A stretch of DNA of 64,000 nt from Clostridia bacterium (lineage in GTDB: Bacteria; Bacillota; Clostridia; Peptostreptococcales; Acidaminobacteraceae). The translations under genes and the position numbers were made by a program. Where the stretch lies: NCBI GenBank assembly GCA_018399635.1, contig JAGYOH010000016.1:1-64000 (forward strand). Direction: 5' to 3'. The notes under the pieces are model-generated. The model had not been told where the DNA came from and ran no database searches. It saw only the letters and a program-made list of their open reading frames with translations. Positions 10,526 to 32,260 of this stretch are shown here, piece by piece (within the stretch, counting starts at the first letter, position 1; each line of letters opens with the position of its first letter).

Positions 10526-11221
10526 TCAAGAGGAGAGGTCCAGAATATGAGTCCTTTGTGACATTCGTTCAATCAGGGCCCTGGAGAGGGCGTTGTCCAG
10601 GAAAACCTCATGCCACCGGTCGGGGGGGAGGGTGGATGTGATGATCAGGCTGCCTTTGTCGTTGCGGTTGGAAAGCAGGTTGAAGAGCAATTCGGCTTCC
10701 GATCGTTCAAAAGACAAATAACCCAGGTCATCGAGAACCACCAGATCATATTTTTCAAATTTTTTCTTGTAGGCAATGAATTTCCGTTGACTCTGCATTT
10801 CAGACAGTTGGGTGATGAGTCCGGCCACCGAGGTGAAGAGGGCGGATTTGCCTTCATAGATGGATTTGACGGTCAAGCCGATGGCCAGGTGGCTTTTCCC
10901 GGAACCAGGAGAACCCATGAGAAAGACATTTTCCTTGTTTTCGATGAAGGCAAGGGTCTCGAGTGCGTTCAACTTTTGGATGAGGTGGGGAGGGTACTTG
11001 TTGCAATCGAAGTCCTTGAGGTATTTCAGATTTGGAAAGCCGGCAGCCTTGATCCGGTTCTGAATCCCCTTGTTTTTCCGATGTTCGTACTCCCGGCTCA
11101 GCAATACGTGCAGGAACTCCTCGAAATTCAGGTTTGTCTCGACGGCTTCTTCAATGATTTCCTGATGGAATCTTTTGATATGCGGCAGCTTCAGCTCAGC
11201 TGCGAATTCCTCGATTTTCAT
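10526..11221 (-). CDS. istB: IS21-family helper ATPase IstB (orphan)
   Basis: A 231-residue DnaC-like AAA+ ATPase that directs IS21 transposition. Walker A is GSPGSGKS (about residues 103-110), Walker B is LVVLDDLGYL (about 160-169), and the C-terminus is canonical (IITSTLPPDRWHEVF...RMSQRTHIL). The start ATG follows a GGAGG on the minus strand and overlaps by ATGA a short upstream frame that could be the last residues of istA. No recognisable istA transposase remains upstream, so this IS21 copy cannot move alone. It abuts the truncated GLUG gene and probably caused that truncation. Confidence 0.85.
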   Translation of the reverse strand: MKIEEFAAELKLPHIKRFHQEIIEEAVETNLNFEEFLHVLLSREYEHRKNKGIQNRIKAAGFPNLKYLKDFDCNKYPPHLIQKLNALETLAFIENKENVFLMGSPGSGKSHLAIGLTVKSIYEGKSALFTSVAGLITQLSEMQSQRKFIAYKKKFEKYDLVVLDDLGYLSFERSEAELLFNLLSNRNDKGSLIITSTLPPDRWHEVFLDNALSRALIERMSQRTHILDLSS

Positions 11222-11445: not shown

Positions 11446-12576
11446 TCAAGGGAAAAGGATAAGCCAGGAAATGACCCTTCTGTCCGGTGGTGGCGGGGTT
11501 GCCCTGGGATGGGTAATTGATGGGGGTCCCTGTGCTGACTTGAAGGATGGCTCCAGATCAATTGATCCGGGGGTCGGATTCTGTGCATTGGTTTTCAAAT
11601 AGGGATAGGGGAGGGCGCATTCAGGATTGAGGCCCTGGAGGCTCCAGGTATGGTCAAAGTCCCAGCCGGCCTGGGTGTAGGCGGCTTCCTGTTTCATCTG
11701 TGGGGTGGTCCTGCCGCTGCCGCCCCCTGGGCTTGAAAGTTGACCGGTGGTCTCCATGTCCCAGAAACTGCTGGTGATTTTGATGTTTTCAGCGCTGCCG
11801 ACCAGACCACCTGTATCGGTGACAGGGCCAAGGACGGCGCCTGTGGCATAGGTGTTCTCCAGGAGGGCTCCTTGATCAGCATGTCCGATCAGGCCGCCTA
11901 GAGACCCGGTACCCCTGACATCTGATGTGGCATAAGAATCCCTGATCAGGGAAAAGGTCGCATGGCTGCCGCCGACATAGCCGATCAAGCCCCCGACCCA
12001 GCCTTCATCCACACTGACCCGGCCTGTGGCATAAGAGTTTGTGACGGTGGCATCATACATGAAACCGATCAGTCCGCCGACCTCGTAGGCCCTTCCGCTG
12101 ACTTCCCCGGTTACGGAGGAATTATGCACCCGGGCATCGACAGCGTAGCCGATGAGTCCGCCGACGCTTTCTCCCCCATGGACCGATTCAATGGCTACAC
12201 TGAGATTCATGACGGTCCCGCCCTTGACATAGGCGAACAGCCCCACGTCTTCCTCCTCGGGCCGATTGATGGTCAGTCCCGTAATTTGATAGCCGCTGCC
12301 ATCAAAAACGCCGGTAAAGGGCTGGTGACGACCCTCAGAACCCATGCCGCGAATCGGCTCCCAGTTGTCAAAGTCACTCAGATCGATGTCATTGATCAAC
12401 TTGAAATGCTGGTCCAGGTGATGCCGTACTTCAAAGACTTGTGCCGCCGTTGAAATCTGAAAAGGGTTCCCTTCAGTGCCGTCTCCTGCATCAAAAGGGG
12501 GAGTTTGCGCGAAGACGGCTTGCAGAAGTGACATCATCAGTGCCGACACAAAGAGTAGGATCGCTGATTTTTTCAT
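11446..12576 (-). CDS. Secreted GLUG-repeat surface protein, C-terminally truncated
   Basis: The 376-residue product starts with a signal peptide (MKKSAILLFVSALMMSLLQAVFAQ). A conserved entry module follows (GTEGNPFQISTAAQVFEVRHHL...FKLINDIDLS), then about six GLUG-type repeats of the form VGGLIGY-NSYATG-V-G (about residues 110-260). GLUG repeats occur in extracellular adhesin-like proteins. After PYLKTNAQNPTPG, where the paralogue at 12992-17471 goes on to an anchoring region with SLH domains, the frame runs into unrelated sequence next to the IS21 remnant. The wall anchor is therefore missing and the product may be released. The ATG has an excellent AAAGGAGG. Transcription is likely from the Bce-type promoter at 12710-12785. 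Confidence 0.85.
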   Translation of the reverse strand: MKKSAILLFVSALMMSLLQAVFAQTPPFDAGDGTEGNPFQISTAAQVFEVRHHLDQHFKLINDIDLSDFDNWEPIRGMGSEGRHQPFTGVFDGSGYQITGLTINRPEEEDVGLFAYVKGGTVMNLSVAIESVHGGESVGGLIGYAVDARVHNSSVTGEVSGRAYEVGGLIGFMYDATVTNSYATGRVSVDEGWVGGLIGYVGGSHATFSLIRDSYATSDVRGTGSLGGLIGHADQGALLENTYATGAVLGPVTDTGGLVGSAENIKITSSFWDMETTGQLSSPGGGSGRTTPQMKQEAAYTQAGWDFDHTWSLQGLNPECALPYPYLKTNAQNPTPGSIDLEPSFKSAQGPPSITHPRATPPPPDRRVISWLILFP

Positions 12577-12709: not shown

Positions 12710-12785
12710 ATTATAAAAAATCATTCTGCTTGCTGCCATCGATTTACCTTGCATTCAAGGCCCTGAACTTACAGGGATGTAAGGT
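12710..12785 (-). promoter_or_regulatory. Bce-type promoter A, for the GLUG gene
   Basis: Read on the minus strand: ACCTTACA, 4 nt, TGTAAGTT, 12 nt, TGCAAGGT, 6 nt, ATGGCA, 18 nt, TATAAT. The first two blocks form an inverted repeat with the TTACA-N4-TGTAA core typical of BceR-like regulators, and the third is a downstream half-site. The -10 is about 135 bp upstream of the GLUG start codon. Confidence 0.75.
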
Positions 12786-12923
12786 TGTGGCAATGTGTGG
12801 TGTCTTCCTGGCGGGAGCCCGGTAAAGTCCTTCAGTCAGTGGTCTTTGTCGACTCGAAGCGCACCGGCAAGTTTTTCGGCGAGTATTTCTTTAAAACAGA
12901 CCCTCTCGATTCCTTTGCTGAAT

Positions 12924-12960
12924 CGAAAAAAAGTGCACCTCCCGACGGGGGGTGCACTTT
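12924..12960 (-). terminator. Terminator of the GLUG-SLH gene
   Basis: Stem AAAGTGCACC.CCC / GGG.GGTGCACTTT with a short loop, followed on the minus strand by a T run. Confidence 0.85.
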
Positions 12961-12991
12961 ACAAAGAGGGGAAACCGTATTGCTCGATATA

Positions 12992-15900
12992 CTAGTCGTT
13001 GATGAGAATCGCCTTCAGGAGGAGATTGCGAATGGCCGTTGCGGCCTCCGCGTAGGTGAAGGTCCCCTTGGGATTGATGGTGTCCGGGGTTCGGCCGTTG
13101 AAGACCCCGACACTCACCGCCTTTTCGACATGGGGATAGGCCCAGGCGGCGATCTGATTCTTGTCGCTGTAGCCTTCAACACGGTTGTTGTTGATGGCCA
13201 TGAGTTCAACGATGTCCATGGCCCTGGCATACATGGTCATGGCTTCTTCTCTGGAAATGATGCCCTCGGGCTTGAAGCTGCCGTCGGGATAGCCCGAGAT
13301 GATGCCGTATTCGGTGGCGGTGGTGATGGCGTCCGCCAGAACGTGGGTGACAGGAACGTCACTGAAGACCTGGGTCCGGGCCACGCCGGTCCGGTAGAGG
13401 CCCAGGGCCTTGGTGATGTACTCGGCGAATTCTCCCCGGCTGATGGCTTCATCAGGGGTGAAACTCTGGGGATTCTTGATGACCAGTCTGGAGGCCATGT
13501 CATTGACCATTTCCTTGGACCAGTGGTTTTCCACCGAGGCCACGTTCACCGGATTCCAGAGGACGCTGTAGTCGGAGTTGGTCAGGGAGTTGAGTCTGGC
13601 GTACCAGATGCCCTCCTCCTCGAAGACCTCCGTCGGGACATGGCTGAAGGTGCCGTCGGCATTGTAGACGATTCCCGTGGTGATCTTCCTGGGATCGATG
13701 CCTGCAGGAATGGCCATGACCCTCTCGACATATTCATTGAATCTGGATACGTGGACATCCTTCACTTCCCCCGTGGTGCTGGTGGTTCTTGCCATGATGT
13801 TGAAACTTGTAGGGGCTACCAGGACTTCAGCCCCCATTTTCCTGGCGTTTTCCGCCATCTCATCGGCTCTCACGGGGTCGGCCTTTTCAATGTCGATATA
13901 GACTTCGATTTTCTCCAGGCTGTCCTCGGAGACTCCCAGGATTTCTGATACAGTGTCGATGGTCAGTTCCCTGGCCGGAATGATGTAGTCCACCAGGTCC
14001 GTCTTGATGGCCAGGTCGAAGACATTCTCCTCCATTTTCTTGACCAGGTCCCCCGTCAGCAGGGTACTGATGACAGCTGCGTTCTTGCTGGCTACGGGGA
14101 CTTCAAGGGTGTTTTTAGAGCTGCCCTGGATGCCGTCCTCGGCCTGCTGCTCCAGGATGTCGTCGATTTGTCGACTCAGGGTCTTGGCATCAGTAGTCAC
14201 GGTGACGACGGTCTGGCCATTGATGATGGCGGGAATTTCCGTCCCGGCGCTTCCAGGCTCGCCATTGACGATGACGATGGTGTTGGACGCCGCGGGCCTT
14301 GAAGGTCTGCTGCTCCCGCTGCTGTCAGAGGTCTGGGTGATGGTCTGAAGACCAGGTGCCGGGTCCTGGGTGTTGCTCAGCAGGTAGGGGTAGGAAATGG
14401 TGTCGACAGGGTCGCCGGCGACAATCCCCCAGGTGCCCTCCTCGCCAAAGGTCCAGTCCGCCTCGAAAGTCGCTTGTTGCTTCATTTGTGCTGTGGTTTT
14501 GCCAACCACGCCCTCGCCACCAGCACTTTCAGTTTGTTCTGAAGTCTCGGTATCCCAGAAGCTGTTGGTGACTGTTGCCCCATTGTCAGCAACGTAACCT
14601 ATGAAGCCACCTACATTTTCGCCACTACCAGTGACTTTACCTGCCGCATAGGAATCCACTATTTGCGTAGGGAGATCTTGGTTAGAAAGATATTGGTTAG
14701 AAATATAACCAACCAGGCCACCTGCTTCACCATCGCTCACAGTGACATCGCCTGTTGCATAGGAATTTTTAATTTCAGCCATCCATGTAACCGATCGCCG
14801 CCAGCAGTATCCGCACCGTTGACATTGCCGATTGCATGGAATTCAAAACTGTAGACCTATAAGCAGTTCCAAACAGACCGCCCAGACTATCGTCACCAGT
14901 AACTTCGCCTTCAGCATGGGAACCGGTTATTGTGCTGTCTTCAATCTCTCCAATGAGGCCGCCGACGTAGTCTTCGCCCGTGACAACTCCTATTGCGTAG
15001 GAATTCGATACCGTCGTGTTAGCAGCATCTCCAATCAGGCCGCCGACTTCGTCCACACCAATGACATTACCTGTGGCATGGGAATCCGATACTTCGGTTT
15101 CATCAGTAGCCTCTCCAATGGGCCGCCGACAAAGCCCTCTCCTGTGACAACTCCTGTCGCATAAGAACTCGTTATCTTAGCTTCTTCAGCATATCCAATG
15201 AGGCCGCCGACTTGGTCTCCAGTGCTACTGACTGCTCCTGTTGCATGAGAATTCGTTACTTCGGTATTATACCTAGCACGTCCAATCAGGCCGCCAATGT
15301 ACTCTACATCGCCTGTGACATCTCCTGTTGCATAAGAATCCGTGACTCTAGCATCATAAGCCTCTCCAATCAGGCCGCCAACTTGTTCCGGGCCACTGAC
15401 AGTACCTCTGCATAAGAATCCGTTACTGTAGCTTCATCTGCATCTCCAATCAGGCCACCGACTCGCTTTCCTGTTGCCCGTGACATTGCCTGTGGCATGA
15501 GAAACCCGTTACTGTAGCTTCATCAGCCTCTCCAACAAGGCCGCCGACAGTCAACGCCACTGAAGCCCCTTTGCCATGGAAGCCTCTAGGGCAGTTTCTT
15601 CAGCACCGCCAATCAGACCGACATAGTCAACGCCACTGACATTACCTCTGCATGGAACCCGTTACTTGGCACCCATCAGTATACCCAATGAGGCCGCCGA
15701 CATAGTCTCCATTACCTGTATGATGTTTCCTGTGGCATAAGAGTTCCCTACCTCAATCGTCTCTGATCCATAGAAAACACCCCCAAAGAGGCCGCATAGT
15801 CATTGCCACTGACTGCTCCCTGCGTAGAATCGTAGTTGCAAAATAATAAGAGTCAGTACTACTCAGACCAATCACCGATACTGCCAATCAGACCGCCGAC

Positions 15901-17471
15901 ATAGTCTCCAGTGGCAGTGACTGGTCCTGTGGCATAAGAACCCTTCATCTCAACCGTCTCGTATTCATAAGTACCAACCCAATGAGACCGCCAATATTCT
16001 CCACGCCACTGATTGCTCCTGTTGTATGGGAATTGATTATATGAACGTCATATGCTTTTCCAACCAGGCCGCCGACACCCCCATCTTCGTGATTGCTGCT
16101 GACATCGCCCTGTGGATGTGAATTTGTGATGGTGGTATCACAACCACCACCCCCGATGAGGCCCCCACGTTATAAGCCGGGTTCCCACGACATCCCCTGT
16201 CGTATAGACCTTCGTTAGGGTAGTGTATTGAGCGTTCCCAATCAAGCCGCCTACAACGTTCTGACCTAGTAGCGATGCGATTTCCACGCCGAGGTTCTTG
16301 ATTTCTGCATGCTCAACGCGCCAAAGAGGCCTACATCATTTTCCGTCAGTCTGCTGATGGTAAGGCTGATGGTTTTTGTCATTACCATCGAATACGCCGG
16401 TAAACGGATAGTCCTCTTGATCTGAATTGTAAATAACCAATCGGGTCCCAGCCGGCATCTTGATTATAAGGTGCCATACCCAGATCGATGTCATTGTTCA
16501 ATAAAATGTTTGTCCAGGAAATCCCGCACGTAATTCAGTTGTGCCGCAGTCTCGATCTGGTAGGGATCGTTCTCACTGCCATCGCCTCCGGCAAAAATGG
16601 ATTGCAAGCCGGGTGCCGGGTCCTGGGTGTTGCTTTGCAAGTAGGGATAAGAGATTGTATCTCCTGGTTTGATGGACTTGATTGCCCAGGTGGCGCTGAA
16701 GTCCCAACCTGTAAAGGTCCCTTGCTGCTTCATCTCTGCCGTAGTCTTGCCTTCTCCACCGGCACTTTCAGTCTGTTCTGAAGTCTCGGTATCCCAGAAG
16801 CTGTCGGTGACTGTTGCCCCATTGTCAGCAACGTAACCTATGAAGCCACCTACATTTTCGCCACTACCAGTGACTTTACCTGCCGCAGGAGATCCACTAT
16901 TTGCGTAGGGAGATCTTGGTTAGAAAGATGACTGGTTGAAATATAACCAGCAGGCCTACTCTTCACCATCGTTCCGGTAACCTCGCCTGTTGCATAGGGA
17001 ATTGCAATTTCGCTAGCCATTCATGTAACCGATCAAGCCGCCAGCAGTATCCGCACCGTTGACGTACCAGTTGCATGAATTCCAAAACTGTAGACCTATA
17101 AGCAGTTCCAAACAGACGCCCAGACTATCGTCACCGTAACTTCGCCTTCAGCATAAGATCATTATTGTGCTGTCTTTAATCTCTCCAATGAGGCCACCGA
17201 CGTAGTCTTCGCCTGTGACAACGCTCCTATTGCGTAGAGATTCGATACATGCGTATCAGCAGCATCTCAATCAGGCCGCCGACATATTCTTCACCTTTAA
17301 CATCTGTTCTCTCCATGGGTGTTCGTTATAAAATAGTCATCATCATCTCCATGATGCACGCCGATCAAACCGCCGACGTTATATTTACCTTGTCACTGAA
17401 ACTGCTTGCGCCAAGGTTCTTGATCTCTCCATCCTCAACAGACCGGCCGATATTATCTCATCAGGTCTACT
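12992..17471 (-). pseudogene. Large GLUG-repeat / SLH-anchored surface protein gene, 5' end lost, multiple frameshifts
   Basis: The intact 3' frame (14782-12992, 596 codons) holds GLUG repeats, a linker (QDPAPGLQTITQTSDSSGSS), a region of about 250 residues without recognised domain, and three C-terminal SLH motifs (FTPDEAISRGEFAEYIT, DGSFKPEGIISREEAMTMY, NPKGTFTYAEAATAI) that bind wall polysaccharide in Firmicutes. Upstream, about 2.7 kb encodes dozens more GLUG repeats (VGGLIG...SYATG) but switches frame repeatedly through 1-2 base indels. A second entry module (GSENDPYQIETAAQLNYVRDFLDKHF) lies at about 16.5-16.6 kb. The 5' end is replaced by an IS30 fragment at 17472. Its original promoter is probably Bce-type promoter B at 20173-20248, now cut off by insertions. 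Some frameshifts may be assembly errors in the repeats. Confidence 0.8.
14522..17250 (-). repeat. Internal tandem duplication in the GLUG array, period about 2.24 kb
   Basis: The segment beginning at 14523 (GCACTTTCAG, then the FWDTETSEQ-encoding stretch) recurs at 16762, and about 490 bp can be followed in both copies. The upstream copy differs mainly by small deletions. Shorter GLUG repeats of roughly 90 bp fill the interval. Confidence 0.75.
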
Positions 17472-18044
17472 CGATGGTCACAAAGCCGCAAGCGTCAGCA
17501 CAAAAAAATTCTGGGACGGAGCATTGACGAGAGATCCTCTGAAGCCAATGATAGAAGTGAATTCGGTCACTGGGAAATCGATACCGTCATCGGAAAGAAA
17601 ACCAAAGGACAAGCTGCTCTGTTGACGTTGACGGAGAGAAAAACCCGCAAGGAGGTTATTCGCAGACTCCCTGAAAAATCCTCGCAATCAGTTCAAGAGG
17701 CGCTGATCAGATTATCTGAAGAAGCAGGTCCTTTGTTTTCAAAAGCTTTCAAGAGTATTACCTCAGACAACGGGTCCGAGTTCTCTGCACTACAGACTTT
17801 AGAGGCATCAACCGGCACCAAGATCTACTATGCCCATCCCTACACCTCAAGTGAAAGGGGAACAAACGAACATCATAACGGCCTAATCAGAAGATTCATT
17901 CCAAAGGGTAAAAGCATCAATGACTATTCCATCAATACCATTGAACGCATTCAAACCTGGTGCAATACCTTGCCTCGGAAGATCTTGGATTATATGACAC
18001 CAGATGAAGCCTTCACAGCCGAAGTACTTGCTCTACAAACATGA
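17472..18044 (+). pseudogene. IS30-family transposase, 5'-truncated
   Basis: The open frame carries the DDE integrase core of IS30 transposases: SRKRQHKKILGRSIDERS, FGHWEIDTVIGKK (first Asp), ITSDNGSEF (second Asp), HPYTSSERGTNEHHNGLIRRF (Glu) and the family C-terminus. The N-terminal helix-turn-helix half is missing and the sequence joins GLUG-repeat DNA at about 17472. AACTTGCTATTGCAATTCTAG near 18075-18097 may be its right end. Confidence 0.8.
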
Positions 18045-18201
18045 TACATAGAAAAAGATATTACAGATGGACTAGTTCAACTTGCTATTGCAATTCTAGT
18101 ATGGTAATTTATCCATATAATAATAAAAATTCCATAATGTATGCTATGGGCACACCAAAAAAATGCAATTCTGGAGTTTTGCAGCAATATGAAACAAACA
18201 T

Positions 18202-18250
18202 AAGCTTGAAGCACAGTGATACCAACTGCTTCAGGCTTTATTTTTTTTAT
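18202..18250 (+). terminator. Hairpin inside the IS1634 left end
   Basis: Stem AAGC.TGAAGCA / TGCTTCA.GCTT followed by a long T-rich run. It blocks read-through from outside into the transposase gene. Confidence 0.75.
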
Positions 18251-18326
18251 TTTTTATTCTTTTTATAGTGTTCTTATGTGTTGTAATATGGTATAATAGT
18301 CATATAATTCAATATTTGGAGGATAT

Positions 18327-20039
18327 ATGTACTTAAAAAAATCATTCAATCGAAAAACCGGTAGAACCTATTTATCAATTGCAGAGAGCTTTCGAGATAA
18401 AGTCACTAAGAAGTCCAAATCTAAGACAATACAATCATTAGGGTATTTGGATGTGTTAGAAAAGAAATATCCAGATCCTATCAGCCATTTCACAGAAATC
18501 GTTGAAGCAATGGAAAATCAACGTCTTCAAGAAAGAATCAATATTCAATTGAATTTTTCAGCAGCTGAACAACTTGATGTAGGCACCAATAATCGAAAGA
18601 ACTTTGGATACGCCGCTTTTAGCTCGATTTATCATTCCTTAGAGATTGACAAATTTCTCATCGGTCGCCAGAAATCAACTGACATCAAAGCCAATACCAA
18701 CAACCTCATGAAACTCCTGGTTTACTCAAGACTTTTAGCGCCAGCTTCAAAAAAGAAAACCTATGAAAATAGAGAGCAGTTTTTTGAGAGAAGCAACTAT
18801 TCCTTAGATGATGTCTACCGTTCGTTGACTTTTCTTAACGACAAAGCCGATGACCTTCAACTTTGGATCAATGATCGAATCAAAGAAAAATATGGTCGGG
18901 ATACCAGTTTAGTCTATTACGATGTGACCAACTATTATTTCGAATCCGACACAGAGGATGACTTCCGGCGCAGAGGCGTTTCAAAAGAGCACCGACCCAA
19001 TCCGATTGTCCAGATGGGACTCTTCATGGATACGAATGGAATCCCTATTACCTATGACCTTTATTCAGGCAATACCAATGATTCTCTGACGTATCGCCCC
19101 ACCTTTTCACGTCTGAAAAAAGAATACGATCTTGGCAAAGTCATTGTGGTGGCCGACAAAGGCATGTCCACCGGAGACAATATCCATTACACGCTTTCAG
19201 CCAACGACGGCTATGTGTTCAGTCAAACGGCCCGTGGTGCCGACAAGGAGCTCAAGACCTTCATTCTTGAAGAAGAAGGTTATGAATGGATGGGGGATGA
19301 CTACAAGTACAAGGAACGATTGGCACCACGGGAAATCTGGATCACCAATACTTCCGGGAGAAAAGTCAAAAGGACAATCCATGAAAAGCAGGTGGTCTTC
19401 TATAGTGAAAAATATGCTAAAAAAGCCCGCTTCGAGCGAGAAAAAGCGCTTGATAAAGCCAAGAAACTTATCGCTTCCCCGGGCAGTTATCACAAAGCCA
19501 CATCCCATGGTGCCGCTGCTTATGTCAAGAACTTGAGCTTTGTGAAAGAAACTGGAGAAATCGCTTCAGGGAAAGATCTGAAGCTGGATGAAAACAAAAT
19601 CAAAGAACAGGAAGCTTTTGATGGTTATTATGTTTTGGTGACCAGTGAGTACGAGCAAACAGCAGGAAAAATCATCGATATTTATAGAGGCCTATGGAAG
19701 ATTGAGGAATCCTTCAAGGTGACGAAAAGTGACCTGGAGACAAGACCGGTTTATGTATCCACACAAGAACATATCAAGGCCCATTTTTTAACCTGTTTTG
19801 TCGCTCTGGTATTGGCAAGACTTCTCGAACATGTCACGGATCATCGACACAGCATTACCAAAATGATTGAAAGTCTGCAAAAGAGCACCTGTACCAACGT
19901 GCAGCAGAATTATTATCTTTTTGATTATTATGATGATGTCCTTGAGGATATTGGACTGGCTTTGAATGTTGATTTTTCAACAAGGATTAGAACTTTGCAA
20001 CAGATTAAAAAAAATATTTCCGACACTAAAAACCGTTGA
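18327..20039 (+). CDS. IS1634-family transposase, intact
   Basis: A full-length 570-residue DDE transposase. YYDVTNYYFE (about residues 199-208) and VVADKGMSTG (about 272-281) give the two Asp residues, and GLWKIEESFKVTKS (about 453-466) the Glu. RPVYVSTQEHIKAHFLTCF is the conserved C-terminal block. GGAGG lies 9 bp before the ATG, and an extended -10 (TGGTATAAT) lies about 30 bp upstream. Base composition is more AT-rich than the surrounding genes, consistent with recent arrival. It is followed by a terminator. Confidence 0.92.
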   Translation: MYLKKSFNRKTGRTYLSIAESFRDKVTKKSKSKTIQSLGYLDVLEKKYPDPISHFTEIVEAMENQRLQERINIQLNFSAAEQLDVGTNNRKNFGYAAFSSIYHSLEIDKFLIGRQKSTDIKANTNNLMKLLVYSRLLAPASKKKTYENREQFFERSNYSLDDVYRSLTFLNDKADDLQLWINDRIKEKYGRDTSLVYYDVTNYYFESDTEDDFRRRGVSKEHRPNPIVQMGLFMDTNGIPITYDLYSGNTNDSLTYRPTFSRLKKEYDLGKVIVVADKGMSTGDNIHYTLSANDGYVFSQTARGADKELKTFILEEEGYEWMGDDYKYKERLAPREIWITNTSGRKVKRTIHEKQVVFYSEKYAKKARFEREKALDKAKKLIASPGSYHKATSHGAAAYVKNLSFVKETGEIASGKDLKLDENKIKEQEAFDGYYVLVTSEYEQTAGKIIDIYRGLWKIEESFKVTKSDLETRPVYVSTQEHIKAHFLTCFVALVLARLLEHVTDHRHSITKMIESLQKSTCTNVQQNYYLFDYYDDVLEDIGLALNVDFSTRIRTLQQIKKNISDTKNR

Positions 20040-20068
20040 ATTTACGCTACACAAAAAAGAAAAAAAAG

Positions 20069-20113
20069 AAACCCATGAACCGTACTGATTCCAGTAGGTT
20101 TCATGGGTTTTTC
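20069..20113 (+). terminator. Terminator of the IS1634 transposase gene
   Basis: 11-bp stem AAACCCATGAA / TTCATGGGTTT with a T tail. Confidence 0.85.
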
Positions 20114-20172
20114 TGCTTCATTTGCTGCAAAACTCAAGGTCTCTGCCTTTGGTATGTAATGATTCACATTAA

Positions 20173-20248
20173 ATTATAAAAAATGTCCTAAAACCGTGCC
20201 ATCGATTCACCTTACATTTTCACCAGAAACTTTGCATCACTGTAAGGT
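20173..20248 (-). promoter_or_regulatory. Bce-type promoter B, orphaned
   Basis: Minus strand: ACCTTACA, 4 nt, TGCAAAGT, 12 nt, TGTAAGGT, 6 nt, ATGGCA, 18 nt, TATAAT. Spacing is identical to promoters A and C. It points into the IS1634 right end and probably once drove the GLUG-SLH gene beyond it. Confidence 0.75.
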
Positions 20249-20257
20249 GGCGGGCAA

Positions 20258-20286
20258 ACAAAAAGCCCCATCAATGGTGAAGGGGC
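20258..20286 (-). terminator. Terminator of the small kinase gene
   Basis: GCCCC.TCA / TGA.GGGGC hairpin followed on the minus strand by TTTTTGTTTG. Confidence 0.7.
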
Positions 20287-20375
20287 GGGGGTCATTTGCA
20301 AGGAGACCAGCCGGTTGAGCGGCATGACGTCGAAAACGGGTGGGGTGGATCAGGGTGACCGGGACCAGGGGCCTT

Positions 20376-21023
20376 CTAGAAGGCCAGAATCAATCTCATT
20401 CCCTTTGACTCGTTGCTTGTGACCTGGAGGCGGTGGGAAAGGCGGCCGGCAATCTGATGACACAGATACAGCTCGATGCCGGTGGTCTGTTTCATTTTCC
20501 TGGTTTCAGGGCCGGCGTAGTCCTCTTCCATGATGCGGGCCATATCCTCCCGGGTGGCGCTTTCAGAATGATTCTCGATGATCAGGCTTCCTTCACGGGC
20601 GGGGTCCATCTGGATGGTGATGGTATCTTTTTTGCTGTCCTTTGAGACGGCGAAGAGGGCCAGCTCTATCAGCAAAGTGAGCCATCTCTCATTGGAGAGG
20701 ACTTCACCCTGCAAGGGTTGCAGATCCAGCCTGTTCTCATGGGCGATGAATTGCAGCGCCGACCTTCTCAACACCCTTTTGACCGTGGCGTGAAGATCCA
20801 GGGGCTCCCGGCGGGTCTCCTCCGACAGGTCATGAACCTGCAGAAAAGGCAGGATGATATCGATGTATCGTTTCAAGGAGACGAGTTCAGCCTGCAGGTC
20901 CTTTCTCCGGGGAGCGGGATCCTGGTCGAGCAACAACTGCAGGGTCGTCAAAGCGGTGTTCATCTGATGGGTCACGATGCCGTAGTTCTCCTGGAGTTCA
21001 GCAATGAACGGTTTATTTTCCAT
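20376..21023 (-). CDS. Degenerate soluble BceS-like histidine kinase homologue
   Basis: A 215-residue protein resembling the cytoplasmic half of BceS-type kinases: a dimerisation helix with His in YGIVTHQMNTAL and the C-terminal TGIELYLCHQIAGRLSHRL block. It has no membrane segments. The ATP-binding marks are eroded: the N-box Asn is replaced in LIELALFAVSK, and the usual DNG of the G1 box reads ENHS, so kinase activity is doubtful. I place the start at 21023 (AAGGA about 10 bp upstream). The longer frame from 21143 would begin inside promoter C, whose -35 block ATGGCA only mimics a start codon. It could act as a phosphatase or adaptor for the adjacent response regulator. Confidence 0.7.
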   Translation of the reverse strand: MENKPFIAELQENYGIVTHQMNTALTTLQLLLDQDPAPRRKDLQAELVSLKRYIDIILPFLQVHDLSEETRREPLDLHATVKRVLRRSALQFIAHENRLDLQPLQGEVLSNERWLTLLIELALFAVSKDSKKDTITIQMDPAREGSLIIENHSESATREDMARIMEEDYAGPETRKMKQTTGIELYLCHQIAGRLSHRLQVTSNESKGMRLILAF

Positions 21024-21113
21024 TTGGCACTCATCCTTCAATTCAATCATTTGGGGCGGCCACTTCTTTGAAGAATCAAAGCGCTTCTTCAGGGCAAATC
21101 CCCCGTCCCAGCC

Positions 21114-21189
21114 AGTATAGTCAATCCTGTGCTTCTGTGCCATAGCTTTACCTTACAATTCCGTCGTGAAACTTACGCCCCTGCAAGGC
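21114..21189 (-). promoter_or_regulatory. Bce-type promoter C, for the degenerate kinase gene
   Basis: Minus strand: GCCTTGCA, 4 nt, CGTAAGTT, 12 nt, TGTAAGGT, 6 nt, ATGGCA, 18 nt, TATACT. Same geometry as A and B. It lies between the response regulator gene and the small kinase gene and implies autoregulation. Confidence 0.75.
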
Positions 21190-21216: not shown

Positions 21217-21888
21217 TCAATCGATATAATAGCCCATCCCTCTTTTGGTCTTGATAAAATCCATCAGACCGATTGAGGCCATTTTTTTTCGCAACCGCGT
21301 CATGTTGACGGTCAAGGTGTTGTCATCCACAAAGGAGTCGTCATCCCAAAGACTGGTGATGAGGCTGTCTCTGGACAGGACCCGGCCGATGTGTGAGAAC
21401 AAGAGACGCAGGATCCGGTGCTCGTTCTTGGTCAACTCCAGTGTCTTCCCCTCATAATCCAGGGTGCTTCTGGAAAGGGTCAGCACCACCCCCCTGTGTT
21501 CGATCACGTCGAGTTCTTCCAGGTAGGAGTAGCTTCTTCTCAAGAGGGCGCCGATTTTCGTCACCAGCAGATCGATATTGAAGGGCTTGACCACAAAATC
21601 ATCGGCTCCCAGATTGATGGCCATGATCATGTTCATGTTGTCGGACAGGGATGAAATGAATATGATGGGGACCCTGGACTGCTTTCGGATGGCTTTGCAC
21701 CAGAAATACCCGTCATAATAGGGAAGATTGACATCCAGTATGACCAGATGGGGCTGGTAGTGGATGAACTGTTCCTGGATGGTCTTGAAATCCTGGACAT
21801 AGAGGACCTCATAATCCCAGGTTCTTAAATGGTAGGCCATGACCTTGGCCAGGGACAAATCATCCTCCACCAACATGATTTTATACAT
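21217..21888 (-). CDS. BceR-like OmpR-family response regulator
   Basis: 223 residues. The receiver domain has the acidic pocket (LVEDD), phospho-acceptor Asp in VILDVNLPYYDGYFWC and Lys in DDFVVKPF. The stretch YYDGYFWCKAIRKQS...GADDFVVKPF closely follows the BceR/YvcP group, which normally answers antimicrobial-peptide transporters. The C-terminal winged helix is complete (LELTKNEHRILRLLFSH...RLRKKMAS...TKRGMGYYID). The start is the ATG at 21888, overlapping the hybrid kinase stop by 8 nt; the longer open frame is spurious. No BceAB transporter is present in the window. Bce-type operators instead precede GLUG surface genes. Confidence 0.9.
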   Translation of the reverse strand: MYKIMLVEDDLSLAKVMAYHLRTWDYEVLYVQDFKTIQEQFIHYQPHLVILDVNLPYYDGYFWCKAIRKQSRVPIIFISSLSDNMNMIMAINLGADDFVVKPFNIDLLVTKIGALLRRSYSYLEELDVIEHRGVVLTLSRSTLDYEGKTLELTKNEHRILRLLFSHIGRVLSRDSLITSLWDDDSFVDDNTLTVNMTRLRKKMASIGLMDFIKTKRGMGYYID

Positions 21889-24097
21889 AATGAACCCCCT
21901 TCTCCAACCAGTATTTGAGACTTGCATATAATTCGAATCTGTCGATCGGCTTTGTGAGGCAGGCATCCATTCCGGCGGCTTTACAGGCGGCCTTGTTCTC
22001 TTCCATGGCATCCGCCGTCATGGCCAGAATCGGGGTACGCCGCCCCCCCTCCTTTTCCAGCTGACGGATCGCCATGGACGCCTGGTAGCCATCCATGACG
22101 GGCATATGACAATCCATCAGGATCAGGGCGTACCGGTGATGCTGACAGGCTTCCAGGGCCTGTTGGCCGTTTTCTGCGGTATGGACTTCCAATCCCATTT
22201 TTTCGAGGAGCTCGGTGGCGACAAGCTGATTGATGGTGACGTTATCCTCCACCAGGAGCAGGGGCTGGGGTGACGACAGGGCCAGGTCCCGGGTCCCGTC
22301 ATAGAAAGCCGGATCAGTCGGGTCGCCCAGGTCAAAGGGGTCGTCCTTCGGGACCTTGTCCAGCCATACCGTGAACCAGAACCGGGAGCCCAGACCCTCG
22401 CGGCTTTCCAGGTTGATGGTCCCCCCCATGAGCTCCACCAGCCTCTTGGCGATGGCCAGACCCAGTCCTGTTCCTTCAAAACGCCGGGTGGTGGAATTTT
22501 CAATCTGGGTGAATTTGTGAAAGAGCTTGACCGTGTCCTCGGCTTTGATGCCGATTCCCGTATCCCTGACCTCAAAGGAGACTTCACTCCTGCCGGCTTC
22601 ATCCCTCAGTCGCCGGACGGTTAGAACAACCCTGCCCCGGTCCGTGAACTTGAAGGCATTGCTCAGCAGATTCAGGAGAATCTGGGACAAGCGGATCCGG
22701 TCTCCTGAAAAAGTCGGGAATTCATCGAGAATCTCAACCTCGTAAGCCAAGGACTTGTGTTTGAAGTTGGACCTGACGATTTTGCTGACTTGCCGGACAA
22801 GGTCGTCAATGACCAGGGGATCATGGAGCAGGGTGACTTTGTGGGCTTCTATTTTCGCCAGGTCCAGGATATCGTTGGTGATGTTCAGGAGCAGGTTGGA
22901 GGACTCCTTGATGGTGGCCGCATATCTGACTTGTGCCTCAGTCAGGTCGGTGGCCAGCAGGAGTTGGGCCGAGCCGGCGATGCCGTTCAAGGGGGTCCTG
23001 ATTTCATGGCTCATGGTGGCCAGAAAGACGCTCTTTGCCGCATTCGCTTCCTCAGCGATTCGTTTGGCTTCGGCCATTTTCTGTTCAGAGTGAAGACGCT
23101 CCGTGACATCGACAATGATCATGTGGACCAGGTCCTGTCCATCCTGATTGAAGACGGCGGGGTAGACTTCAACCTCCCTGAGATTGCCACCGGAAACCAC
23201 CTGCCGGTCCAGATAGATCCGATCCATGGGGTCTTTCAGGTAGTCTGCAAAGGCATGTGTGGTGGTGGACAGATCATCGATGTGCTTTTCCTTGAGGGCG
23301 GCCAGGGAAAGACCGTAGTAGGCCATGGCCGCAGGGTTGGCATTGTCGATATTCCCCTTTGCGGGATCGATGACCAGTTGGACGGTTTTCGATTTGAGAA
23401 AGAGCTCCTGGTACTTCTGTTCGACGCGATTGTTCTCGATGATTTCAGACTGCAGATACAAGTAGATGATCAGGAGGGCGAAGGCTGTCATGACCCAGAC
23501 GACGGCGATGCCGTAAAATACGATTTGCAGGAGGGCGCCGAGGAAATTGGGGAAGACGAACATCATCAAGGCCAGGAACTCTTTCCGGCTGAGGGAGGCT
23601 CTTTTTCGAATCACGACGACGGCGGAGGCGATGAGGTACACATAGGCCGTCGCCGGCATCAGGGCGAAATAGTCTCCGCGATGGTAGACGTTGTAGGGGT
23701 CGACGTAAAAGGTGAAATTGCCGAAAACGCTGACGACGGAAAACAGGGTGTTCAAGAACAGGGGGATTCCTACCATGGCCAGCAATGAAGGGGTCAGATT
23801 TTTGACGGTTCTTGTAAAATTGAGGACATACAAAAGCCAAAGGGCCCCTGAAAAGGGGTTCAATATGTAAAAAACCATGACGATGAAGGTGAGAATCCCT
23901 CTTGAGGTATCCGAATCCTTTCCCGTGCTGAGATTGAGGAGCAGTTCAAAGATCAGGAGCAGGGCCGTGACCAGCAGCATGGTCGAAAAGATATGTTCAC
24001 CCGGGTCTTTATTTCCGAAGTGTTTGCGCATGTTGACGGCAATCAACAGAATAATCGCCAATCCCGTCAAGCTGGTCTGCACATAGTAGACTGACAA
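21881..24097 (-). CDS. Hybrid sensor histidine kinase with 7TM sensor, PAS and receiver domains
   Basis: About 738 residues. The N-terminal 225 residues hold about seven hydrophobic helices (7TM kinase sensor type). A PAS domain follows (about 225-345), then HisKA with MSHEIRTPLNG, HATPase_c with an intact N box (LLNLLSNAFKFTD), DTGIGI and GTGLGLAIAKRLVELMGG, and a C-terminal receiver (LLVEDN, LILMDCHMPVMDGY, LTKPID). A TTG at 24097 preceded by AGGGGGG is the best start; a GTG lies six codons upstream. It overlaps the response regulator gene, so the two are translationally coupled. Presumably phosphate passes through its receiver or directly to the BceR-like protein. The usual Bce sensor transporter is absent. 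Confidence 0.92.
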   Translation of the reverse strand: MSVYYVQTSLTGLAIILLIAVNMRKHFGNKDPGEHIFSTMLLVTALLLIFELLLNLSTGKDSDTSRGILTFIVMVFYILNPFSGALWLLYVLNFTRTVKNLTPSLLAMVGIPLFLNTLFSVVSVFGNFTFYVDPYNVYHRGDYFALMPATAYVYLIASAVVVIRKRASLSRKEFLALMMFVFPNFLGALLQIVFYGIAVVWVMTAFALLIIYLYLQSEIIENNRVEQKYQELFLKSKTVQLVIDPAKGNIDNANPAAMAYYGLSLAALKEKHIDDLSTTTHAFADYLKDPMDRIYLDRQVVSGGNLREVEVYPAVFNQDGQDLVHMIIVDVTERLHSEQKMAEAKRIAEEANAAKSVFLATMSHEIRTPLNGIAGSAQLLLATDLTEAQVRYAATIKESSNLLLNITNDILDLAKIEAHKVTLLHDPLVIDDLVRQVSKIVRSNFKHKSLAYEVEILDEFPTFSGDRIRLSQILLNLLSNAFKFTDRGRVVLTVRRLRDEAGRSEVSFEVRDTGIGIKAEDTVKLFHKFTQIENSTTRRFEGTGLGLAIAKRLVELMGGTINLESREGLGSRFWFTVWLDKVPKDDPFDLGDPTDPAFYDGTRDLALSSPQPLLLVEDNVTINQLVATELLEKMGLEVHTAENGQQALEACQHHRYALILMDCHMPVMDGYQASMAIRQLEKEGGRRTPILAMTADAMEENKAACKAAGMDACLTKPIDRFELYASLKYWLEKGVHYV

Positions 24098-24235
24098 GTG
24101 ATTCCCCCCTGTCACATTTATTCCTGGCGGTGGCGGCTGCGGGAATTTTCAATATTTCTCCGCCCGGCTGGTGGATTGAATTTTCATGGAAAGTCAAGGG
24201 TCCATGGCAGGCAAGTCGGACAAGTCTCTTGAGCC
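24098..24235. other. Intergenic, divergent upstream region
   Basis: Lies between the minus-strand signalling operon and the plus-strand glycan block. No gene recognised. A minus-strand promoter for the kinase operon must lie here, but no convincing -35/-10 pair was found. Confidence 0.4.
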
Positions 24236-32101: not shown

Positions 32102-32217
32102 GAGGGCAATACCATACACCACTCCGATTCTGTTTTTCCTGCATCGAGGGGCGACAATCACTAGGAGGACAGAACTACAGGGTTCAAGAAGGAATTCTTC
32201 AGCCTGCCGTGATTGCA

Positions 32218-32260
32218 AAGGAGTTTATTCATTGAGTTGAATAAACTCCTTGTCTATTTT
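32218..32260 (+). terminator. Leader terminator upstream of AOR
   Basis: 14-bp perfect stem AAGGAGTTTATTCA / TGAATAAACTCCTT, then TTTTTT. It lies between the MerR-type promoter and the AOR start, so it may attenuate that transcript. Confidence 0.8.

Follow-up and report, generated by a model that had tools for sequence, protein, structure and literature searches.

We analysed a stretch of 64,000 nucleotides (nt) from a Clostridia bacterium of the family Acidaminobacteraceae (contig JAGYOH010000016.1, positions 1 to 64,000; in the following the window). Its most plausible interpretation is a Bce regulon that has lost its transporter and in which the sensor has been replaced, with three activator-dependent promoters probably standing under the control of a BceR-like response regulator. 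The Bce identity of this locus and the rewiring of its input are supported; the claim regarding its output is thin.

The three promoters are compound arrays on the minus strand, each composed of three half-sites, the hexamer ATGGCA and a -10 element. Array 1 (12710-12785) reads ACCTTACA-4-TGTAAGTT-12-TGCAAGGT-6-ATGGCA-18-TATAAT, array 2 (20173-20248) ACCTTACA-4-TGCAAAGT-12-TGTAAGGT-6-ATGGCA-18-TATAAT and array 3 (21114-21189) GCCTTGCA-4-CGTAAGTT-12-TGTAAGGT-6-ATGGCA-18-TATACT. The layout 8-4-8-12-8-6-6-18-6 fits all of them gap-free, and the spacings of 4, 12, 6 and 18 nt are exact in every copy, as had been stated in an initial annotation of the window. This annotation had also given identical half-site letters for the three copies, which had to be corrected: half-site 1 is shared by arrays 1 and 2, half-site 2 is different in each array, half-site 3 is shared by arrays 2 and 3, and the -10 element of array 3 deviates from the other two, so that only ATGGCA is invariant (3/3). 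The spacer bases do differ, as it had claimed, and in pairwise comparisons 29-32 of the 36 motif positions agree versus 13-16 of the 40 spacer positions (Fisher p = 1.1e-6, 1.8e-6 and 3.2e-4). A pattern search of the whole 2.36-Mb genome (assembly GCA_018399635.1) retrieved arrays 1, 2 and 3 as the only matches; the reversed pattern had no match in the whole genome, and the array pattern had none in shuffled versions of the window. The position-weight scores of the arrays range from 50 to 56 bits (array 1: 55.6) compared with a maximum of 13.9 bits in 1 Mb of random DNA, a comparison that is descriptive, as the arrays are included in the matrix.

The arrays show the composition of Bce-type promoters, namely an inverted repeat and a downstream half-site at fixed spacing. 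A three-part site of this kind is said to have been described by Fang et al. in 2017, with the third half-site following after a 13-nt linker. The inverted repeat TNACA-N4-TGTAA, which is the published consensus of a Bce regulator and was accompanied by an electrophoretic mobility shift assay (PMC9020739), is exact in array 1 and exhibits one or two changes in arrays 2 and 3. A structured RNA such as a riboswitch was rejected as the basis of the arrays, because the only Rfam match in the window is a molybdenum/tungsten cofactor riboswitch located elsewhere (32110-32239, plus strand, 48.6 bits). The same applies to the ends of mobile elements, because the arrays do not overlap the insertion sequence (IS) genes and are also found in front of bceA in genomes of other families.

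The distribution of the array among other Clostridia documents its affiliation. Five genomes of the same family (G009, G017, G037, G038 and G040) harbor an array with the identical four spacings, flanked by a bceS-like gene on one side and a bceA-like gene on the other, which corroborates the Bce-type assignment of the initial annotation. Our survey comprised 788 genome searches, i.e., 395 genomes of the order and 393 of the class. Within the order, 26 genomes besides that of the window contain one copy each, 20 of them directly before bceA, and 19 others from the class contain 21 matches, 20 of which could be classified and 17 of which precede bceA. The combined proportion of 37 among 46 classified arrays that are located directly before bceA identifies the array, as judged from its genomic context, as the ordinary Bce-type promoter of Clostridia, and envelope genes would represent occasional extra targets. 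The exceptions comprise genes for SLT transglycosylases (G149, G683), HlyD-type adaptors (G066, G091), a glucosaminidase (G235), a PBP-type transglycosylase that was named from its sequence only (G564), and unknown proteins.

The survey also yielded observations on the promoters themselves. In G149 (L134, 10127-10751) and G683 (L142) a Bce-type array precedes the gene for an SLT lytic transglycosylase, a second kind of Bce target; in the former genome it adjoins bceR and bceAB. The tetramer ATGG, which follows TGTAAG at a distance of 8 nt and precedes the -10 element by 20 nt, is nearly invariant throughout the class despite its poor match to a -35 element (L071-L087, L112-L120, L140-L157), and the ATGG counts are biased by the inclusion of this motif in the search patterns. 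In a number of bceAB promoters (L074-L077, L081, L084-L087, L102, L108 and L112) the linker and the third half-site can pair with the -35/-10 spacer (array positions 21-70), which gives a species-specific hairpin with a T run behind it that resembles a bceRS terminator inside the bceAB promoter. The stems of the true linker-spacer pairs have a mean of 6.18 versus 4.56 in swapped pairs (0 of 5000 permutations); the hairpin is weak or absent in the arrays of the window.

The candidate for the cognate activator is the product of the response regulator gene at 21217..21888 (minus strand), a protein of 223 amino acids with a receiver domain (REC) and a winged helix. It exhibits the phosphorylatable Asp (Asp52) and the Ser/Phe switch of BceR-like regulators, whose residues Ser79 and Phe98 are located in the segments SSLSD and ADDFVVKPF, and equivalent switch residues have been described for BceR, BraR and NsrR (PMC4773095). 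Among proteins of solved structure, NsrR of S. agalactiae (5dcl, 5dcm) matches it best with 195 bits, and the next family follows at a gap of 83 bits (112 bits). In the maximum-likelihood tree the regulator and its orthologue from the metagenome-assembled genome ML8_F1 are nested inside 25 bceAB-linked regulators, and the split from other OmpR-type proteins is supported by values of 100/99. The DNA-binding segment DDNTLTVNMTRLRKK is common to the regulator and the bceAB-linked proteins. These comparisons support its descent from BceR and are in accordance with the initial annotation. A second regulator of comparable closeness was not found in the genome, and all three arrays are located within 9 kb of this only BceR-like gene found.

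In classical Bce systems the BceAB transporter also serves as the sensor. The initial annotation had noticed that BceAB is missing from the window, and for BceB this absence extends to the whole assembly: a BceB query retrieved no homologue at E <= 1e-5 in the genome of the window (G000) or in the one congener that was compared (G001), and the same query had a match in each of the six other relatives searched. The locus hence differs from a Bce detoxification module, in which BceAB is encoded together with the two-component system, and BceB is likely absent from the genome (95.6% complete). BceRS signalling of S. agalactiae falls silent when bceAB is deleted (PMC11502775); a transporter-less system would therefore need another input.

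The obvious candidate for this input is encoded in the same operon, namely a seven-transmembrane (7TM) hybrid histidine kinase (21881..24115, minus strand; 744 amino acids) with the domain order 7TM-HisKA-HATPase-REC and no HPt domain, whose gene shares 8 nt with the start of the regulator gene. The congener, a Firmicutes bin from Mahoney Lake (PMC4846661), carries the same pair with identities of 66% for the kinase and 78% for the regulator. The initial annotation had already put the hybrid kinase in the sensor position, and its conserved pairing with the regulator in a second species points in the same direction. As judged from the shared gene pair, the input had probably changed before the two species diverged and was kept in this form thereafter, and the intact state of both genes in the congener speaks against a recent decay of the input side. 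A hybrid kinase gene (PAS-HisKA-HATPase-REC) is also located directly upstream of bceR in Eubacterium sp. SUG269 (L117, 5458-8675), there as part of a complete bceRSAB locus.

The initial annotation had placed an array in front of a degenerate kinase gene. Array 3 is indeed located directly upstream of this gene, between it and the regulator gene, but the listed kinase start (gene 20376-21143) turned out to be wrong: the ATG at 21143 is part of the ATGGCA of array 3, and the kinase gene must therefore start further downstream, most likely with the ATG at 21023. The resulting protein (20376..21023, minus strand) of ~215 amino acids comprises a DHp and an ATP-binding domain, and homology identifies it as the cytoplasmic half of BceS. 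The alignment with BceS-type kinases of 13 relatives starts around residue 48 of the listed gene, i.e., just after the promoter, and the reading frame is uninterrupted despite less than 30% identity to these relatives. BceS is its sole sequence match in the PDB, and its structural model, a DHp plus ATPase fold with a mean predicted local distance difference test (pLDDT) value of 83, has the BceS structure 8g3a as top fold match. The two transmembrane helices of an intramembrane-sensing kinase are missing, since homology to BceS sets in only behind the membrane region and the promoter fills the upstream DNA. The phospho-acceptor His has been kept (THQMNTAL); the N-box Asn, the DTGIGI motif (ENHSES here) and one Gly of TGIGL (TGIEL here) are lost, which deprives the ATP-binding domain of its N, G1 and G2 motifs. 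A conserved DHp His and fold together with lost ATP motifs are, in sequence and structure, the hallmarks of Spo0B- and ChpT-like proteins.

The following mechanism would account for these features. A dimer of the regulator would bind to the TNACA-N4-TGTAA repeat and another subunit to the third half-site, which lies two helical turns further downstream; the DNA-bound complex would recruit RNA polymerase to the weak -35 element (ATGGCA) 18 nt before TATAAT. Both the BceAB transporter and the membrane portion of BceS would have been lost in this lineage, and the input would now enter via the 7TM hybrid kinase of the regulator's operon. Predicted targets of the regulator are the BceS remnant (array 3), the GLUG-repeat gene GLUG1 (array 1) and a former gene behind array 2.

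The phosphate of a hybrid kinase normally passes from the receiver via HPt to the final regulator. For this reason, and because the BceS remnant keeps the His and the body that formerly met BceR, we propose a role as phosphotransferase: in the manner of Spo0B and ChpT, the remnant may carry phosphate from the receiver of the hybrid kinase to the regulator, with its BceR-facing surface presumably kept and normal ATP binding no longer possible. The complete four-step phosphorelay would lead from the 7TM hybrid kinase via the BceS remnant to the BceR-like regulator and finally to a secreted GLUG protein and the relay's own phosphotransferase, both of them expressed from promoters of the classical Bce type in a lineage that no longer has the transporter. 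We regard this chain as a tentative and rather doubtful proposal, and two HPt-type matches elsewhere in the genome, one of them above the family cut-off, could serve instead of the remnant.

On the output side, GLUG1 (11446..12576, minus strand) encodes a secreted protein of 376 amino acids with GLUG repeats and a signal peptide and is preceded by the ribosome binding site AGGAGG. It is the only GLUG gene with an array (array 1) directly upstream, it lacks an SLH anchor, and its 3' end abuts the remnant of an IS21-type element with its IstB gene (10526..11221, minus strand). Of the two GLUG genes of this locus, SLH is found solely in the broken GLUG2-SLH pseudogene (12992..17480, minus strand), which retains an intact SLH end of 596 codons (12992-14782) and exhibits many frame changes with 34-43 stops per frame in its 5' part. 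Array 2 faces an IS1634 element instead, whose end lies within ~35 nt downstream and which a transcript from this promoter would enter (transposase gene 18327..20039, plus strand; element ends ~18170 and ~20140 by inspection); a transposase fragment with an integrase core (rve; 17622..18044, plus strand) follows, and GLUG2-SLH is located beyond. Of the two GLUG promoters postulated in the initial annotation only that of GLUG1 can thus be retained. The scan of related genomes, whose negative outcome the annotation itself had named as a refutation, showed that the linkage with bceAB is conserved and that with GLUG genes is not: position-weight scans upstream of GLUG genes on contig 1 of this genome and in G001, G017, G038 and G040 detected no array, and none is present upstream of the GLUG-SLH gene of the congener. 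The rewired Bce pathway of the annotation hence stands for the input, with BceB missing and a 7TM hybrid kinase as partner, whereas its output, surface adhesins according to the annotation, is reduced to one GLUG gene without SLH. The case for GLUG proteins as physiological output is thin, with a single, probably 3'-truncated gene behind it.

Array 2 may instead have served the lost bceAB genes. According to this scenario, for which we see roughly even chances, it is the ancestral bceAB promoter, only arrays 1 and 3 were recruited, and Bce control never extended to GLUG2. Its location 3' of the BceS remnant corresponds exactly to that of the bceAB promoter behind bceS in the relatives, so that any former connection with GLUG2 would be conjectural, and the DNA between array 2 and GLUG2 consists of mobile-element sequence. 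We found no contradicting point; an ancestral array 2 is compatible with a transporter-less Bce regulon and leaves a single gene for the GLUG claim.

Several observations weigh against this regulon. Two pattern searches of the 98%-complete assembly of the congener found no array, an absence that is qualified by the end of its contig 226 nt beyond the regulator gene, and a counterpart of the BceS remnant was not found in the congener. The completeness of 95.6% means that bceAB may be located on an unassembled stretch of the genome. GLUG1 has probably been cut at its 3' end by the IS21 remnant, and the genes downstream of the arrays are all damaged or simplified (GLUG1, the GLUG2 pseudogene cut from array 2, and the kinase remnant). 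The main rival is a decaying locus, in which an IS rearrangement removed bceAB and left promoter copies beside GLUG genes by chance, i.e., arrays without a current target. Three mobile elements or their fragments (IS1634, integrase core, IS21) within 10 kb would fit such a relic, as would the frame changes of GLUG2, the lost anchor end of GLUG1 and the lost catalytic motifs of the kinase. We nevertheless consider decay unlikely, since the half-sites, ATGGCA and the -10 elements agree far better between the arrays than the spacers do, the regulator and the hybrid kinase are both intact and have conserved orthologues in a second species (78% and 66% identity, respectively), and the frame of the BceS remnant has stayed open despite its low identity to the relatives. 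That the arrays serve another OmpR-type regulator (e.g., a WalR- or PhoP-like one) with an incidental BceR-like neighbour is highly improbable, because, although several regulators of the OmpR family use TGTAA half-sites and weaker array matches in other genomes precede cell-wall genes, the five-part geometry tracks bceR-bceS-bceAB loci (37/46) and the three arrays cluster near the only BceR-like gene.

A transporter-less Bce regulon would share essential components with the BceRS-BceAB modules directed at peptide antibiotics (B. subtilis BceRSAB, S. agalactiae NsrRK-NsrFP, pneumococcal TCS01), namely a BceR/NsrR-type regulator, a BceS-derived kinase domain, and TNACA-N4-TGTAA plus a third half-site in the spacing found before bceA of the relatives. 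It differs from them in the absence of BceB from the assembly, a kinase without membrane part and ATP motifs, the 7TM hybrid kinase in the regulator operon, and promoters in front of GLUG1 and of the kinase remnant. Non-transporter targets of a Bce regulator, which are predicted here, have a parallel in ApsR/PsdR of L. paracasei, which act on dlt and mprF (PMC10858260), but this species keeps its transporter and senses through it. Spo0B and ChpT combine a DHp plus ATPase-type fold and a phospho-acceptor His with the lack of a working ATP site (PMC3433190, PMC6136694). The BceS remnant resembles them in its kinase-like fold with His and would likewise stand between a hybrid kinase or receiver and the final regulator; it is distinguished by its BceS ancestry, and its activity is a proposal. 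Neither protein is among the 50 top fold matches listed for the remnant, a list made up of BceS and further histidine kinases.

The textbook example of a transporter that acts as sensor is provided by the Bce systems. The locus described here suggests that an antibiotic-sensing Bce pathway has been taken over by a new sensor, and a transporter-less lineage without membrane-bound BceS would document a change of input and output with the DNA code kept. The phosphorelay, if true, would represent a fresh example of a kinase-born phosphotransferase whose parental pathway is still recognisable.

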